Assembly: GCF_003855095.1 (NCBI RefSeq)
Contig: NZ_CP033972.1
Location: forward strand, 124,001 to 188,000
Reading direction: 5' to 3'
DNA length: 64,000 nt
From: Gordonia insulae
GTDB lineage: Bacteria; Actinomycetota; Actinomycetes; Mycobacteriales; Mycobacteriaceae
Every line of letters begins with the position of its first letter. Position 1 is the stretch's first letter. This document shows, piece after piece, positions 19,470-27,515 of this stretch. A program made the translations under genes and the position numbers. The notes beneath the pieces were generated by a model. That model was not told the DNA's origin and ran no database searches. It saw only the letters and a program-made list of their open reading frames with translations.

Positions 19470-19541
19470 GCGCGTATAGCTCAGCGGTAGAGCTCTGGTC
19501 TTACACACCAGCGGTCAGGGGTTCGAATCCCTTTGCGCGCA
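19470..19541 (+). tRNA. tRNA-Val (anticodon TAC)
   Basis: 72 nt folding as a complete cloverleaf: acceptor arms GCGCGTA/TGCGCGC with discriminator A, anticodon stem CTGGT/ACCAG around the loop CTTACAC (anticodon TAC at 19502-19504), and a T loop TTCGAAT. No CCA is encoded. The part from position 19499 onward is duplicated at 27472-27515, marking this tRNA as the integration site of the element that follows. Confidence 0.95.
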
Positions 19542-19542
19542 C
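19499..19542 (+). repeat. attL core, 44-bp direct repeat within tRNA-Val
   Basis: Runs from the end of the tRNA anticodon stem through the T arm and acceptor to one base past the discriminator. It is identical base for base to 27472-27515. Because the left copy completes the tRNA gene, insertion restored a functional tRNA. Confidence 0.93.
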
Positions 19543-19590
19543 TCCTATAGGTACAGGTCAGGCACCAATTCGATCCGCTATGCAGAGCAG

Positions 19591-19622
19591 CGAATCCCCG
19601 CAGTGTGCCGAGAATGTGCCAA
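19591..19622 (+). repeat. Left inner 32-bp direct repeat (candidate integrase arm site)
   Basis: Matches 27333-27364 with one mismatch and in the same orientation. It contains two spaced copies of TGTGCC. Its position just inside attL fits an arm-type binding site for the element's recombinase (inference). Confidence 0.6.
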
Positions 19623-19649
19623 TGGCCGGTGAAAATCGCTCCCAAGCAG

Positions 19650-20123
19650 TCACTGGGGGGTGATGTTCCGGACAGGCGTACCGAGTTCGGGTGGCTGAGG
19701 CGTCAAGAGGATTCCGGCGATTGGCCGTACCCTTACGGATGCTTCGTGGACGGCCTGCCGGACGAACGGGTAGAGGTCTTCAAGACCTTGCCGCGCGAGA
19801 CCTCGCTGGTAATCCTCTGGGATTCGCTCGAAGAGTGTGTCTCCGGACGTTAGTACGCTGCTCTCCGGATTGATTTGATAGAGGCCGACCAATTTGACGT
19901 TGACGCAGACCAAGTCCTTCTGCATCGACACCGACAGCGAGCACGCGACATGCGATTCGTCATCGAAGGACTCGACCGACACAACTCCGTTGCTTTCCGT
20001 CGTTTGGGTCATCCACGTGGGCAACGGGTCATCGCCATCGTCCAAACGTTCGCACAACATTCGCTGTAGATCGACATGTATCAACTGCACCTGCAGCGCA
20101 TCACCCTGCGGCCTTTTTTTCAC
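19650..20123 (-). CDS. SecB-like chaperone of a toxin-antitoxin-chaperone (TAC) module
   Basis: 157 residues resembling SecB: a beta-rich core (SVSMQKDLVCVNVKLVGLY, then INPESS) and a C-terminal helix region LYPFVRQAVHEASVR followed by PIAGILLTPQPPELG, matching the SecB end pattern. Actinobacteria lack the usual SecB export route, but TAC modules such as Rv1957 use a SecB-like protein to protect a labile antitoxin. The start GTG overlaps the antitoxin stop (GTGA), so the two are translationally coupled. It is the last gene of the toxin-antitoxin-chaperone series, the same order as in M. tuberculosis. Confidence 0.75.
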   Translation of the reverse strand: MKKRPQGDALQVQLIHVDLQRMLCERLDDGDDPLPTWMTQTTESNGVVSVESFDDESHVACSLSVSMQKDLVCVNVKLVGLYQINPESSVLTSGDTLFERIPEDYQRGLARQGLEDLYPFVRQAVHEASVRVRPIAGILLTPQPPELGTPVRNITPQ

Positions 20124-20521
20124 AGAGCGTCCTTGAGTAGATCACTCTCCGAAAATTCCCTCTTTACACGTTTCGCGCGGCGTAGTCGTCCGAGTTCGAG
20201 GACGTTCTGTTCGGGAACAGCTCGTGCGTCGAAACGGATCGATGACGTCCTCGGCTGGGGCGGTTCCACTACGTCGGGTTGAACAACGCGCATCTTCAAG
20301 ATCACACCGACGTGCATCGCGTACTCGATCAACTCCGAGATACGCGGGTTGCTGTCAACTCGCTCCATCCGACTGATCGTGCTTCGGTTGACACCCATCT
20401 GGTTCGCGAGTTGCGCCTGGTTCAACCCTGCCGCCTCTCGTGCGTCAACCAAGGCTCGCTTAAGCGCGAACTCGTTTCGCACGCTCGCCTTGGCGATCGC
20501 ACGCTTGCGGACGGAAGACAT
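20120..20521 (-). CDS. HigA-like antitoxin with XRE helix-turn-helix and C-terminal chaperone-dependence tail
   Basis: 133 residues. Residues about 24-72 form an XRE/Cro helix-turn-helix (AREAAGLNQAQLANQMGVNRS, TISRMERVDSNPRISELIEYA). After it comes a tail of about 60 residues, rich in Arg, Pro and hydrophobic residues, with no known domain. In TAC antitoxins such a tail (chaperone addiction sequence) makes folding depend on the SecB-like partner. ATG 20521 follows GAGAGGG. It overlaps the chaperone gene by 4 bp and lies 45 bp after the toxin gene, with a palindromic operator in that gap. Confidence 0.85.
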   Translation of the reverse strand: MSSVRKRAIAKASVRNEFALKRALVDAREAAGLNQAQLANQMGVNRSTISRMERVDSNPRISELIEYAMHVGVILKMRVVQPDVVEPPQPRTSSIRFDARAVPEQNVLELGRLRRAKRVKREFSESDLLKDAL

Positions 20522-20540
20522 GACCGGGACCCTCTCATAT

Positions 20541-20561
20541 GTGTTGCACTTGCTGCAACAC
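20541..20561. promoter_or_regulatory. Palindromic operator between toxin and antitoxin genes
   Basis: GTGTTGCA and TGCAACAC are perfect 8-bp inverted arms around a 5-bp centre, 20-40 bp upstream of the antitoxin ATG. This fits an autoregulatory site for the XRE antitoxin and suggests that antitoxin and chaperone have a promoter separate from the toxin's. Confidence 0.6.
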
Positions 20562-20566
20562 CAATC

Positions 20567-21091
20567 CTATCTTCGCAGGATACGATAGGTGCAGGACTCC
20601 TGAGTGGCCCATCGCTTCACGATCGATTGCGCCTTCCCGATTTGCGTTGTCTGCTTCACGTGGGCTTTTGAACGTGTGCGACGATGCGATTGAGTCTGGT
20701 GCCTTGCCTGCTCCTTCATCTCACGTGCCGTCTTCCACGCAAAGAGCGCAGCAACCGCGGAGCGACCGTCATGTGGTGCTTCACCGAAGTACAGCCGGTA
20801 CTCGCGACGCCCGCCCTCACCCTTCCGATGGGCCCCTTGCCGACCGAACTCGCCAATCCAGGCAGGAGCAACCGACATCGTGGTCGTACCCAATGGCGCT
20901 TTGTAGTCACCGGGTGCGATCGCACCTTCCTCAGAGTCCTCCAGGAGGGCCTCGAAAAAGGCAAGCGCGGCGTCGTCTACCCCTTCTTCCTCTAGCTTCT
21001 TGATTTCGGCGAGGTACGGCTCAAGCTGCGTCCATTTGGTTGGTCCAAGCTCGATGCAGGACACCGACTCCGGATCGCGGCTGGTCGTCAC
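20567..21091 (-). CDS. Putative HigB/RelE-fold toxin of the TAC module
   Basis: 174 residues. The central strand pair REYRLYFGE and SAVAALFAWKTAREMKEQARHQ resembles the HigB/Gp49 toxin core, in which a basic strand and helix bind the ribosome and cut mRNA. It is longer than M. tuberculosis HigB1 (125 residues), with an acidic N-terminus and a basic tail (HRRTRSKAHVKQTTQIGKAQ). Position as the first gene of a toxin, XRE antitoxin, SecB series supports the call more than sequence alone does. GTG 21091 has a GAGGGC site upstream. No catalytic residue can be assigned with confidence. Confidence 0.62.
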   Translation of the reverse strand: MTTSRDPESVSCIELGPTKWTQLEPYLAEIKKLEEEGVDDAALAFFEALLEDSEEGAIAPGDYKAPLGTTTMSVAPAWIGEFGRQGAHRKGEGGRREYRLYFGEAPHDGRSAVAALFAWKTAREMKEQARHQTQSHRRTRSKAHVKQTTQIGKAQSIVKRWATQESCTYRILRR

Positions 21092-21164
21092 AACACGGCC
21101 CTCGATCTCGGCAGAACGTCTCGGCCCTGCATAGCTGGCCCAGCGCAGATCCGATGTGCGCCGG

Positions 21165-22511
21165 TCACTCGCTCGCCGCCCGCGACCCGAGCAGCGATGC
21201 GCCGGCCGATTCGAGTGCGTCGTCGTAGACGTGCCCGTACACCCGCAACGTCATGCCGGGATCATGCCCGAGCCACTTTGCCGTCGCCGACAAAGTGTTG
21301 CCCGAGTCGAGCATCATCGTCGCCGCAGTGTGCCGCACATCGTGCAACCGGATCATCGGCACACACGCAGCCTTGGCCTGCCGGACGAACTCACCCGAGT
21401 ACGTTTCCGGCCGGATCCGTGACCCGTCACCGTTGACCGCGACGAGCCCGGTATCCCGCCAATCAGGACCGATGACCAGGCGTTCGGCTGCCTGCGCCGC
21501 CTTGAACGATCGGAGCGCGGCGATCACGTCACCGGGCACCGGCAGCACCCGACGAGACCGCGCCGACTTCGGGGCGCCCTCGACGGTGCCCTGACCCGGC
21601 ACGATCACCCGACCCGACACGATCGCGACGGTGCCAGCGTCGAAGTCGATCGCATCCCACCGCAGGCCCAGGACCTCGGATCGCCGCAGCCCGCACAAGG
21701 TGAGCAGCCATAGTGCATAGAGCCGATCCGACTCGACGTGCCTCCGGAACTGTGCGGCCTGCTCTCGGGTCCATGTCGCCATCTCCCGCGATGCGATCTT
21801 GGGTCGCTCGACGAGCCGAGCGACGTTGCGCGCCACGAGACCTTGCGCCATCGCATCGTCGAGCGCCGCCGACAGCTGCACGAGCATCGTCACGACCGTC
21901 CGCGCGCTCACCCCAGCAGGCTGCTCGGCGTCGTCGACCTCGACAGCGATGTAGCGGCCACGCGCCGGCCGGTCGAGGTGCCCACCCTCGCGTAGCCGGT
22001 CGAGGAACTTGCCGGCGTTCGCCCCGAACTCGGCCTCGACCTGCACGTAGCTCACGCCATCGGCATGTTCGGCGACGAACGCGAGTATCTGCGCGGCCCG
22101 TTCGGACAGACGACGCGCCGGCACCCGCCCCGATTCCGTGCGCCACGCCACGAGGTCGTCGACGTGCGACTTGCTGAGCTGCTGCAGTTGTATTCCGCCG
22201 AGCCGGTCGATTACCGGTTTCAGTGCCTGCCGGTAGCCAGCCAGCGTGACCGGCCGAATGTCGCGGCGACCGTCAAGCCAACCGGTCAGGAACTCGGAGA
22301 CCGTAACCGCGTGCCGCACAACGTATGTGCCGGCGGCGACTTCAGTTGCGATGCGCCGGTATTCGCGTCGCGCCTCGGCCATCGTCCGATAGGTGAACCG
22401 CTGCCGCAGCCGACCGCCGTCGGGTTTACTTCCCACGTCGACCTGGAACGTGTAGCTCGCGGCACCGTTCTTCGCGGTGCGCCTGGTGATCGGTTCGGCC
22501 CGTCGCGTCAT
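21165..22511 (-). CDS. Tyrosine-type site-specific integrase with an inserted winged-helix-like segment
   Basis: A 448-residue phage-type recombinase. Catalytic residues seen are Arg near 275 (CGLRRSEVLGLRW), His-x-x-Arg near 390 (LHDVRHTA), the WLGH His near 412 and Tyr near 424 (RVYGHVYDD). The N-terminal part has an AP2-like arm-binding domain and a SAM-like core-binding domain starting at VTVSEFLTGWL. Between VAWRTESG and VSARTV, where relatives have a short Gly-rich loop, about 70 residues (about 128-200) read like a winged helix. ATG 22511 is chosen; the upstream frame is non-coding in composition. It should catalyse integration at tRNA-Val. Confidence 0.92.
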   Translation of the reverse strand: MTRRAEPITRRTAKNGAASYTFQVDVGSKPDGGRLRQRFTYRTMAEARREYRRIATEVAAGTYVVRHAVTVSEFLTGWLDGRRDIRPVTLAGYRQALKPVIDRLGGIQLQQLSKSHVDDLVAWRTESGRVPARRLSERAAQILAFVAEHADGVSYVQVEAEFGANAGKFLDRLREGGHLDRPARGRYIAVEVDDAEQPAGVSARTVVTMLVQLSAALDDAMAQGLVARNVARLVERPKIASREMATWTREQAAQFRRHVESDRLYALWLLTLCGLRRSEVLGLRWDAIDFDAGTVAIVSGRVIVPGQGTVEGAPKSARSRRVLPVPGDVIAALRSFKAAQAAERLVIGPDWRDTGLVAVNGDGSRIRPETYSGEFVRQAKAACVPMIRLHDVRHTAATMMLDSGNTLSATAKWLGHDPGMTLRVYGHVYDDALESAGASLLGSRAASE

Positions 22512-22671
22512 GCCGACACCATAGCGCCGAGATCTGATACATTCGGGAACGTTCAACGCTGCAGGCGAGGAGCCGGGCGATCGAAAGGTCACCCGAGCCC
22601 GAACCGGCGGCACCAATTTTCGCAGCTGGCTAGGGGCCGGGCGACCTGATCCTTCCGAGGACCGCCCCGCC
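22512..22671. promoter_or_regulatory. Divergent int-xis control region
   Basis: 160 bp between the divergent integrase and excisionase genes. It contains a TGATACATT patch that could serve as a -10 element on either strand, and two copies of GCCGGGCGA. This is the expected site of the integration/excision switch, but no operator palindrome is clear. Confidence 0.35.
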
Positions 22672-23004
22672 ATGCCCAGAACTGCCGAACCAGCTATCGA
22701 CCTCGCTGACGCACTCGACGCGATCGCGAAGGTTCCCACCGACAGCCTCGACCCCGTGACGGTCGACGCACTCGACACTGCCCTCCGCGCGATCACCTCG
22801 CTCGGCAACACCGGCACCGCCGAGTGGGCCGTGCGCAATCAGCCGACGATCTCAGTGGTCCAGTACGCGAACCTGATCGGCATCAACCGCATCACGGCCT
22901 ATGAGCACGTCGAGCGCGGCGACATTCCGTCGATCAAGGTCGGCCGGCGCCGACGTATCCCGGCCGCGGTCATCCGCCGGCAACTCGGCATCGAGGACGC
23001 GTGA
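22672..23004 (+). CDS. Excisionase-like helix-turn-helix protein
   Basis: 110 residues. The C-terminal half (SVVQYANLIGINRITAYEH, then IPSIKVGRRRRIPAAVIRRQLG) is an Xis/AlpA-type winged helix that recognises DNA through a MerR-like wing. It is transcribed divergently from the integrase, as directionality factors often are. ATG 22672 has GAGGA upstream. It probably bends DNA at the att arm sites during excision or acts as an AlpA-type activator; which of the two cannot be told from sequence. Confidence 0.8.
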   Translation: MPRTAEPAIDLADALDAIAKVPTDSLDPVTVDALDTALRAITSLGNTGTAEWAVRNQPTISVVQYANLIGINRITAYEHVERGDIPSIKVGRRRRIPAAVIRRQLGIEDA

Positions 23005-23008
23005 CGCG

Positions 23009-23602
23009 ATGCCCAACAATAACGAAGGCCGGCAACAACTGCCGGCCCCCGAACGCCCCTCCAACAAAGGCATCGCCGAGTCTATCCGTCCGACAGCGTT
23101 CGAGGAATGGCGCGCAATCCCCGGCTACGTCGGCGTCTACGAGGTATCGGACCTCGGCCGCATCCGATCACTCGACCGCACGATGGTCAGCGCTATCGGA
23201 CACGCGACACGCCGGACCGGGCAACTGATCTCACCCGCCCGAGACAGCAAAGGCCACCTCGTTGTCAGCCTTTACGGGCGTGACCACACCAAGCGCAGCG
23301 CCCGCGTCCACAGGCTTGTCCTGTCTGCGTTCGTCGGCCCATGCCCGCCCGGCCGCGAAGCACTGCACCGCAATTCGCGAGCCGAGGACAACCGGCTCAC
23401 GAACCTGAGGTGGGGTACACGCGTCGATCTCGGCAGGCTCACCGTCCAGAACGGACGGCATCCGGTGGCCCGGCGCGCACACTGCGCCCACGGCCACCAC
23501 TACAGTGCCGAGAACACTCGCATAGTCCAGCGTTCCAACGGTCGTACTGTCCGCGTCTGCCGCGCCTGCCAGACCATCCGCGGCACGAGGCCCCAGCGAT
23601 GA
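23009..23602 (+). CDS. NUMOD4/HNH homing-type endonuclease
   Basis: 197 residues. A NUMOD4 motif (EEWRAIPGYVGVYEVSDLGR) is near residue 30. An HNH core follows: VHRLVLSAFVGPCPPG, the central His-Arg-Asn segment, and EDNRLTNLRWGT. A C-terminal zinc-knuckle-like segment has Cys/His pairs (HCAHGHHY and CRACQ). Such genes are common in actinophages as free-standing homing endonucleases. It starts 5 bp after the excisionase gene and overlaps the ATPase gene by 4 bp (ATGA), so it is part of the same operon. It may be a homing parasite or take part in element replication. Confidence 0.85.
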   Translation: MPNNNEGRQQLPAPERPSNKGIAESIRPTAFEEWRAIPGYVGVYEVSDLGRIRSLDRTMVSAIGHATRRTGQLISPARDSKGHLVVSLYGRDHTKRSARVHRLVLSAFVGPCPPGREALHRNSRAEDNRLTNLRWGTRVDLGRLTVQNGRHPVARRAHCAHGHHYSAENTRIVQRSNGRTVRVCRACQTIRGTRPQR

Positions 23603-24885
23603 GCCCACACGCAGCGAAACGTCAGCGCCCCAGCCGGCCACGCAGCAACCTCGTCGACGACATGCGACGAGCCGAACGCACCAACCTCGACAACCACCAC
23701 GACCGGAAGATCGACGAGCCCCGGCACGTCCTCGATCGCCGACAAGCCGCCACAGCCAGCACTGAGGCTGTGACAACCACCGTCGAAGCGCCCGACGTCG
23801 ACCTCAGCGGCCCCCACGACGTACCGCTGCCCGAGGAACCCGTAGCCGAGGACGGCGGCCCTTCTGAGCATGGCCCGCGACGCTCCATGCGCGCGCCTTT
23901 GGCCGATCGCCTGCTGACGCTCTCGTCGCTCGGCGAACTCCGCATACCGACGCCCCTCGTCGGCGGGCTGCTCTACCGCGGAACGCTCGCCCAGCTAGCC
24001 GGTCCTGCCGGCAGCTACAAATCGTTTCTCGCGATCGCCGTTGCTTGCTCCGTAGCGGCTGGTACAGACCTCGACGGGCAAAGGGCAGGTGAACCCGAGC
24101 GGGTCATCTACGTCGCCGCTGAGGGCGCTGCAGGACTGCGTGCTCGAATCCTCGCGTGGTGTGAACACCACGGCATCGACCCCCGCGTACTCGAACCGAC
24201 TCTCCGTGTCCTGCCTGTGCCCGTCCAACTCGGCAATCGGTCCACCGACGTTGCCGAAGCCGCCGAAGCCGCACAACAATTTCACGCCGCGCTCGTCATC
24301 CTCGACACCCGATCGAAATGCACGATCGGTTTGGAAGAGAACAGCAACACCGAGCAGGCAAAGGCAGTCGAGGCCGCCGAGCAGATTTGCGAAGCGACCG
24401 ACGCAACAGTCCTCGTCATCCATCACACCGGGAAAACCGGCAGCACGCCGCGGGGAGCCACTGCATGGGACGGCGGCGTCTGGTCCGACCTGCGCATCAC
24501 CAACGGCAAGGACTTCGCTGTCACGGTCCGTTGCGAAAAGCACAAGGACGCCCCGTCCGGCTGCTCACATGGCTACCAACTCGTCGAGCATCAGGTGTCC
24601 GACGACGCTATGCCGCGCAGCTCCGAGAACGCGCGAAGCACCCTCGTCTGTGTCTCACGAAAGGGTGAGACTCCTGCCTCGGTGTCTCAGTCCGACAGTC
24701 TCATCGTCAGAACACTGCGTGAGACTCCTGGCCTTACCGGCCCGGAGCTAGTCGCGGCAACCAGGATCTCGAAATCGACCGTGTACAAGCGCTTAAGAGC
24801 GCTGCTAGCAGACGGAACCGTGGTCAAGTCGGGGACCCGTCACTCGCTTACCTCGTCCGCAGTCGCTCAGCGGAAAGTCTCATGA
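23599..24885 (+). CDS. RepA-like AAA ATPase (AAA_25 type) with C-terminal winged helix
   Basis: 428 residues. Residues 1-110 are charged and probably disordered. A RecA-fold ATPase follows, with Walker A GPAGSYKS (135-142) and Walker B LVILD (about 232-236), and the IHHTGKTGSTPRG segment typical of RepA/KaiC-like helicases. The C-terminus has a DNA-binding helix-turn-helix (LTGPELVAATRISKSTVYKRL). It is likely the element's replication helicase or initiator. The gene's 3' end and the DNA beyond contain ten GTCTCA sites that could be its binding sites. ATG 23599 overlaps the HNH stop. Confidence 0.82.
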   Translation: MSPHAAKRQRPSRPRSNLVDDMRRAERTNLDNHHDRKIDEPRHVLDRRQAATASTEAVTTTVEAPDVDLSGPHDVPLPEEPVAEDGGPSEHGPRRSMRAPLADRLLTLSSLGELRIPTPLVGGLLYRGTLAQLAGPAGSYKSFLAIAVACSVAAGTDLDGQRAGEPERVIYVAAEGAAGLRARILAWCEHHGIDPRVLEPTLRVLPVPVQLGNRSTDVAEAAEAAQQFHAALVILDTRSKCTIGLEENSNTEQAKAVEAAEQICEATDATVLVIHHTGKTGSTPRGATAWDGGVWSDLRITNGKDFAVTVRCEKHKDAPSGCSHGYQLVEHQVSDDAMPRSSENARSTLVCVSRKGETPASVSQSDSLIVRTLRETPGLTGPELVAATRISKSTVYKRLRALLADGTVVKSGTRHSLTSSAVAQRKVS

Positions 24886-27332: not shown

Positions 27333-27364
27333 CGAATCCCCGCAGTGTGCCGAGAGTGTGCCAA
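27333..27364 (+). repeat. Right inner 32-bp direct repeat (candidate integrase arm site)
   Basis: Matches 19591-19622 with one difference (G for A) and in the same orientation. It lies 107 bp inside attR. Together the pair probably marks the P and P' arms of the circular form's attachment site. Confidence 0.6.
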
Positions 27365-27471: not shown

Positions 27472-27515
27472 TCTTACACACCAGCGGTCAGGGGTTCGAA
27501 TCCCTTTGCGCGCAC
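27472..27515 (+). repeat. attR core, 44-bp direct repeat (displaced tRNA-Val 3' part)
   Basis: Identical to 19499-19542 over 44 bp, with differing bases on both sides. It has no upstream D arm or acceptor 5' strand, so it is not a second tRNA gene. Host synteny resumes immediately to its right. Confidence 0.93.

Follow-up and report, generated by a model that had tools for sequence, protein, structure and literature searches.

A probable diverged toxin-antitoxin-chaperone operon beside the integrase of a tRNA-Val-integrated element in Gordonia insulae

Three genes carried at the tRNA end of an integrative element of Gordonia insulae raise the question of what kind of system they form, and whether that system serves to hold the element in its host or to defend the host against phages. 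The genes lie in the window, by which we mean the whole stretch of 64,000 nucleotides (nt) analysed here (64 kb, part of a genome consisting of a single contig of 5.96 Mb). In the toxin-antitoxin-chaperone (TAC) system of Mycobacterium tuberculosis, the gene order is toxin HigB1, XRE-type antitoxin HigA1 and SecB-like protein Rv1957. The original prediction had read the same anatomy from the letters of the window, and this reading is well supported: three intact open reading frames (ORFs) follow one another on the minus strand as a toxin-like gene, an XRE antitoxin gene with a tail and a SecB-like third gene, all where they had been placed, and the last two overlap by GTGA (coding strand ...GACGCTCTGTGAAAAAA), such that the TGA ending the antitoxin gene and the GTG opening the third gene have bases in common. 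To this order and overlap are added the SecB fold of the third protein, the tail of the XRE protein and a weak toxin model that aligns best with HigB1. Chance ORFs were rejected because relatives keep the same gene order; no sigma-70-type promoter was found in 19500-21400. We regard the TAC architecture as highly likely, and the best reading of the operon is a diverged TAC family whose toxin and chaperone are missed by the three family libraries searched (Pfam, NCBIfam and PADLOC). Since profile libraries miss both proteins, actinobacterial TAC systems are probably under-counted.

The third gene (19650..20123, minus strand) encodes a protein of 157 amino acids (aa) whose AlphaFold2 model (predicted local distance difference test, pLDDT, 83) matches SecB folds, with the M. 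tuberculosis TAC chaperone Rv1957 as its top Foldseek match (17% identity in that alignment). The model also matches streptococcal SP1558 (2hng) and 2o2a, and a false SecB match was rejected, no other fold being close in score. The lack of a SecB fold at 19650-20123 had been named beforehand as the outcome that would count against the prediction; the fold is present in the predicted structure, and a SecB-like fold for this protein, encoded alongside toxin and antitoxin as in TAC systems, is supported by the model. The Pfam SecB family PF02556 gave no match to the window protein at E <= 1, did not figure among the six families hit by the 33 third-gene members, and was found in none of the 201 genomes of the bacterial family, G. 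insulae included. Relatives of the third gene are sporadic (3/201 family genomes and 2/298 order genomes, its own included), and a genome-contig scan with A1 yielded only Rhodococcus sp. ARC_M6; none matched in viral contigs, and the third-gene relative P0007 had no match in plasmids or phage records.

The antitoxin gene (20120..20521, minus strand, 133 aa) encodes an XRE-family protein of a known DNA-binding antitoxin type (HTH_3, PF01381, E 1.7e-9, above the curated cut-off). Ten loci with toxin-like and XRE genes were compared, the window included, the relatives' XRE genes being recognised by alignment. The window antitoxin extends past the core common to the ten XRE proteins by a C-terminal tail of 53 residues (residues 81-133; 20123..20281, minus strand). 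All nine antitoxins of three-gene loci have such a tail, and the antitoxin of L018, where no third gene is recognised, ends at the core (a single negative case). On inspection of the alignment by eye, the window tail aligns with none of the relatives' tails, and the nine diverge among themselves. The M. tuberculosis TAC antitoxin likewise has a C-terminal extension, and chaperone-addiction (ChAD) sequences, as PMC5105189 describes them, differ in length and sequence while conferring chaperone dependence. Tails that diverge, and are absent without a third gene, match what chaperone addiction predicts, though the negative case is single; the window tail is a candidate chaperone-addiction segment.

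The toxin-like gene (20567..21091, minus strand, GTG start) encodes 174 aa, about 50 residues more than HigB1, as predicted (HigB1 chains, 120 and 121 residues). Its structural model gave its best VIA-align alignment with HigB1 at 23% structure-aligned identity, the model itself being weak. The HigB/Gp49 family PF05973 was not recovered, as the window toxin had no Pfam hit at E <= 1 and PF05973 did not appear in the family matches of 11 toxin-family members; this absence lowers the case that the protein is a HigB, not the case that it has a HigB-like fold. The toxin-family profile found no solved-structure sequence at E <= 10, no toxin relatives were found in viral contigs, and the window toxin had none in plasmids. 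From the modelled topology we consider a RelE/HigB-type toxin likely.

Between the toxin and antitoxin genes lies a palindrome, GTGTTGCA-N5-TGCAACAC (20541..20561), with arms of 8 base pairs (bp), equalled in 4 of 500 shuffles. An equivalent site, TGTTGC-N7/8-GCAACA with at most one mismatch, precedes the antitoxin gene in 7 of the 10 loci (five without mismatch), 4 to 70 nt ahead of the antitoxin start as used; the palindrome at 20541-20561 is the sole zero-mismatch site in the 64-kb window, and L010, L012 and L028 have no site. In a shuffled control under a looser rule (two mismatches, spacers of 5 to 9), 7 to 22 of 500 stretches per locus held a site; since the motif was first read from some of the tested loci, this test is partly circular, L014 not being among the source loci. 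The palindrome is likely an antitoxin-bound operator that would drive the antitoxin gene and the third gene separately from the toxin gene.

The ten loci differ in their third position. The third-gene search alone yielded L010 (G173) and L011/L012 (Rhodococcus sp. ARC_M6), and L010 and L012 both carry a toxin-like gene, an XRE gene and a SecB-like relative in the window's order, the last two genes overlapping. With L014 (third gene: hmmsearch 2.3e-10, hhalign probability 73%) and the window itself, 4 of the 10 loci have a SecB-like third gene, which in each of the four follows and overlaps the antitoxin gene. In L014, positions 437-1453 of the reverse strand hold the toxin-like and XRE parts in one uninterrupted frame, the C-terminal part of the toxin departing from its relatives; this may be either a fusion or decay. 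In two loci a toxin-XRE pair of the same kind is followed by a DUF6941 gene where a SecB-like gene stands in the window (L003:510-929, minus strand, E 4.2e-8; L005:2500-2916, plus strand, E 1.1e-8), both over the Pfam cut-off. Three further third genes (L004, L006 and L028, the last with a weak toxin match, E 1.5e-4) had scores to the SecB-like profile that fell inside the spread of their shuffled versions (20 per gene) and were left without family assignment for that reason. In the tenth locus, L018, the XRE gene is succeeded by an 87-aa ORF and by transposase-like genes, and loss of the third gene by insertion is therefore possible. Toxin matches at L007 (E 4.4e-4) and L008 (E 8.4e-4) stand outside this comparison.

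DUF6941 was found by search in 6 of the 201 family genomes at seven places, eight with L003 (G048), which the search missed, so that all DUF6941 counts are lower bounds. It follows a toxin-XRE pair at two of the eight places (L003 and L005, the latter the same as L079), is joined in frame to a Fic/Doc domain at three (L077:1036-1872, L081:835-1893 and L083:1048-1950), stands without a clear partner at L078 and L080, and at L082:101-1866 is the last of a row of XRE, M78 (ImmA/IrrE-like) and DUF6941-like genes, the last two overlapping; the DUF6941 scores of L081, L082 and L083 are below the Pfam cut-off. At the level of the class, 29 of 153 genomes carry DUF6941 at 30 loci, none with an XRE- or toxin-profile match, and one HicB-like ORF was seen by eye upstream of DUF6941 (L113). 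This partner test is weak, the Fic pattern having missed three Pfam-confirmed Fic loci and the XRE profile the XRE gene that Pfam found at L082; within its limits, DUF6941 as a general toxin partner was not upheld outside the bacterial family. It seems that DUF6941 may usually stand alone and was recruited beside toxins in this family, as SecB was. The name DUF6941 was not found in the literature searched. We tentatively suggest, at less than even likelihood, that the third position is an interchangeable sensor or chaperone slot, filled by a SecB-like or a DUF6941 protein, each with its own unrelated antitoxin tail and the palindrome often kept, and that DUF6941 may be a second, non-SecB antitoxin guardian and infection sensor.

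The placing of the operon next to the integrase of an 8-kb integrative element, also part of the original prediction, is confirmed by the ends and genes of the element. The element, of about 8.0 kb, is inserted at a tRNA-Val (tac) gene (19470..19542, plus strand, ARAGORN) and bounded by a perfect 44-bp direct repeat of the tRNA-Val end (19499..19542 at the tRNA; 27472..27515 at the far end, a 44-base match at G000:C1:151472-151515). Inside these lie two 32-nt repeats of 97% identity (19591..19622 on the tRNA side, 27333..27364 at the other end), possible recombinase arm sites. The tyrosine integrase ORF (21165..22838, minus strand, PF00589 E 7.5e-15), whose gene probably begins near 22517, is 34.4% identical to the integrase of Rhodococcus phage REQ2; PF13338 (AbiEi_4 helix-turn-helix) matches residues 250-296 of this ORF weakly, below the cut-off (E 0.0015). 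An excisionase-like helix-turn-helix protein (22672..23004, plus strand, HTH_17 E 2.5e-6, TIGR01764 over its cut-off) completes, with the integrase and the direct repeats at the tRNA 3' end, the features of a tyrosine-integrase integrative element. Further along is an AAA_25 ATPase with a winged helix-turn-helix (23341..24885, plus strand, PF13481 E 5e-34), replication-protein-like and presumably with a role in replication. A homing-endonuclease-like ORF with NUMOD4 and HNH domains (22901-23602) overlaps the end of the excisionase-like gene. In the loci of 24 relatives, each taken with about 1.5 kb of flank, nothing matched the sequence to the right of the element, and with no empty site found the mobility of the element rests on the repeats and the integrase.

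What the operon does for its carrier may be approached through its relatives. L012 neighbours two UvrD/GajB-like proteins, a DruE-like protein, an HNH protein and a TerD protein; L014 an McrBC-family protein and an AAA_5 ATPase; L018 a type IV restriction enzyme; and L028 the candidate defence models PDC-S28 and PDC-M30A. L006 (L024:14309-19023) lies at a prophage-like contig end from the same genus, with a serine recombinase, a cytosine methylase and an M78-like protein below the Pfam cut-off, and L004 on a 3.6-kb contig. Other TAC systems are phage sensors in the published accounts of PMC11980606 and PMC11618068. Defence is favoured on the strength of these restriction, candidate defence and prophage-like neighbours and of the published phage-sensing TAC systems.

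Beyond what the computations returned (a SecB fold, an XRE antitoxin with a tail, an order of overlapping genes that recurs in other genomes, and a palindrome ahead of the antitoxin gene), a mechanism may be proposed. The toxin would be a RelE/HigB-type, ribosome-dependent mRNA-cutting enzyme; the SecB-like protein would recognise the antitoxin tail and keep the antitoxin folded and shielded from proteolysis; and the antitoxin would repress its own promoter, which would feed the chaperone too. On infection, the chaperone would become occupied by a phage protein (a freshly synthesised tail or capsid protein in the systems already known), the antitoxin would be lost, and the toxin would halt growth before phage release, element addiction being a by-product. 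A diverged TAC module, carried as cargo beside the integrase of the 8-kb tRNA-Val element and working in this way, is in our estimate moderately probable as a whole, and an anti-phage role as its main function somewhat favoured.

A number of results weigh against this account. Neither the window toxin nor the third gene was given a family by Pfam, NCBIfam or PADLOC at E <= 1. The toxin model is weak (pLDDT 61.1, with 38-41 for the four others), and Foldseek returned no match to it at E <= 0.001. The toxin profile did not match significantly the profile of 21 Gp49/HigB proteins (21 of 22 used, L065 of 315 aa being dropped): hhalign gave a probability of 0.7% and E 0.08, with E 0.19 for an unrelated control and 0.28 for the best of 10 column shuffles. 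Toxin relatives are rare (7/201 family, 4/298 order and 3/394 class genomes, its own included each time), and the toxin-like genes of L010 and L012 were recognised by place and aligned motifs, G173 and G165 being outside the toxin-search matches. The defence neighbours are a locus-by-locus listing, made without enrichment calculation or random-locus control; six proteins near L010, L003 and L005 had no PADLOC match, and the other scanned genes of the element, the homing-endonuclease-like ORF excepted, had no clear one.

The rival that survives best is element addiction, in which a cell losing the element is killed or arrested by the module because its toxin outlasts the antitoxin and the chaperone. 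It is favoured by the place of the operon between integrase and attachment site, the toxin gene following the integrase stop by 73 nt on the same strand, and by the serine recombinase near L006 in its prophage-like stretch; however, relatives of the module have other surroundings, in several cases with restriction or candidate defence genes nearby, and thus the module is not bound to a single type of element, and an addiction module would not need the third protein. We hold addiction as the main role to be unlikely, and the analysis leans towards defence as the better supported of the two. Less probable still is a three-gene regulatory unit controlling integration or replication of the element, its first gene a non-toxic partner of an XRE repressor: no toxin family matches the toxin significantly in sequence and its model is weak, but topology and structural alignments favour the RelE superfamily, the module is also found outside such elements, and a SecB-like chaperone beside an XRE protein with a tail is what marks TAC systems. 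That the third protein is instead a general chaperone supplementing export is very improbable, for although the lack of canonical SecB in the family leaves that slot free and known TAC chaperones, when overexpressed, can replace E. coli SecB (as reported in PMC5105189), the gene's constant position over the antitoxin stop and its sporadic relatives speak against it.

A diverged TAC module with a probable defence role is thus the reading we retain, and what is most novel in it, and worth following, is the exchangeable third position. Related toxin-antitoxin pairs with a SecB-like, a DUF6941, an unassigned or no partner provide a natural test of how antitoxins come to depend on a partner; if DUF6941 does replace SecB, chaperone addiction would be one case of a broader rule by which antitoxins borrow proteins as sensors.

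Among known proteins, SP1558 (2hng) and 2o2a, titled 'unknown function' in the PDB, share with the third protein a likeness of fold; we take both to be SecB-like, as their place among the SecB rows also suggests. TAC chaperones outside PF02556 have already been described in several communities, mostly in regions with transfer signatures, in the account of PMC4257090. In CmdTAC, the T4 capsid-protein sensor, a SecB-like chaperone similarly controls an antitoxin whose C-terminal part is long and unstructured, but the toxin is an mRNA ADP-ribosyltransferase and the relevant passages of PMC11618068 do not call the antitoxin XRE. E. coli HigBAC, the phage-lambda tail-protein sensor, has HigB toxin, HigA antitoxin and SecB-like HigC in one module, as PMC11980606 presents it; its trigger is known and its toxin is placed in the recognised HigB/Gp49 families, the window toxin in none. 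Compared with the M. tuberculosis TAC, the window operon differs in its low identity to Rv1957 and HigB1, its longer toxin and its carriage on an 8-kb tRNA-integrated element, yet it shares the order of toxin, tailed XRE antitoxin and SecB-like protein, and Rv1957 and HigB1 are the best Foldseek and VIA-align matches of its third protein and toxin.
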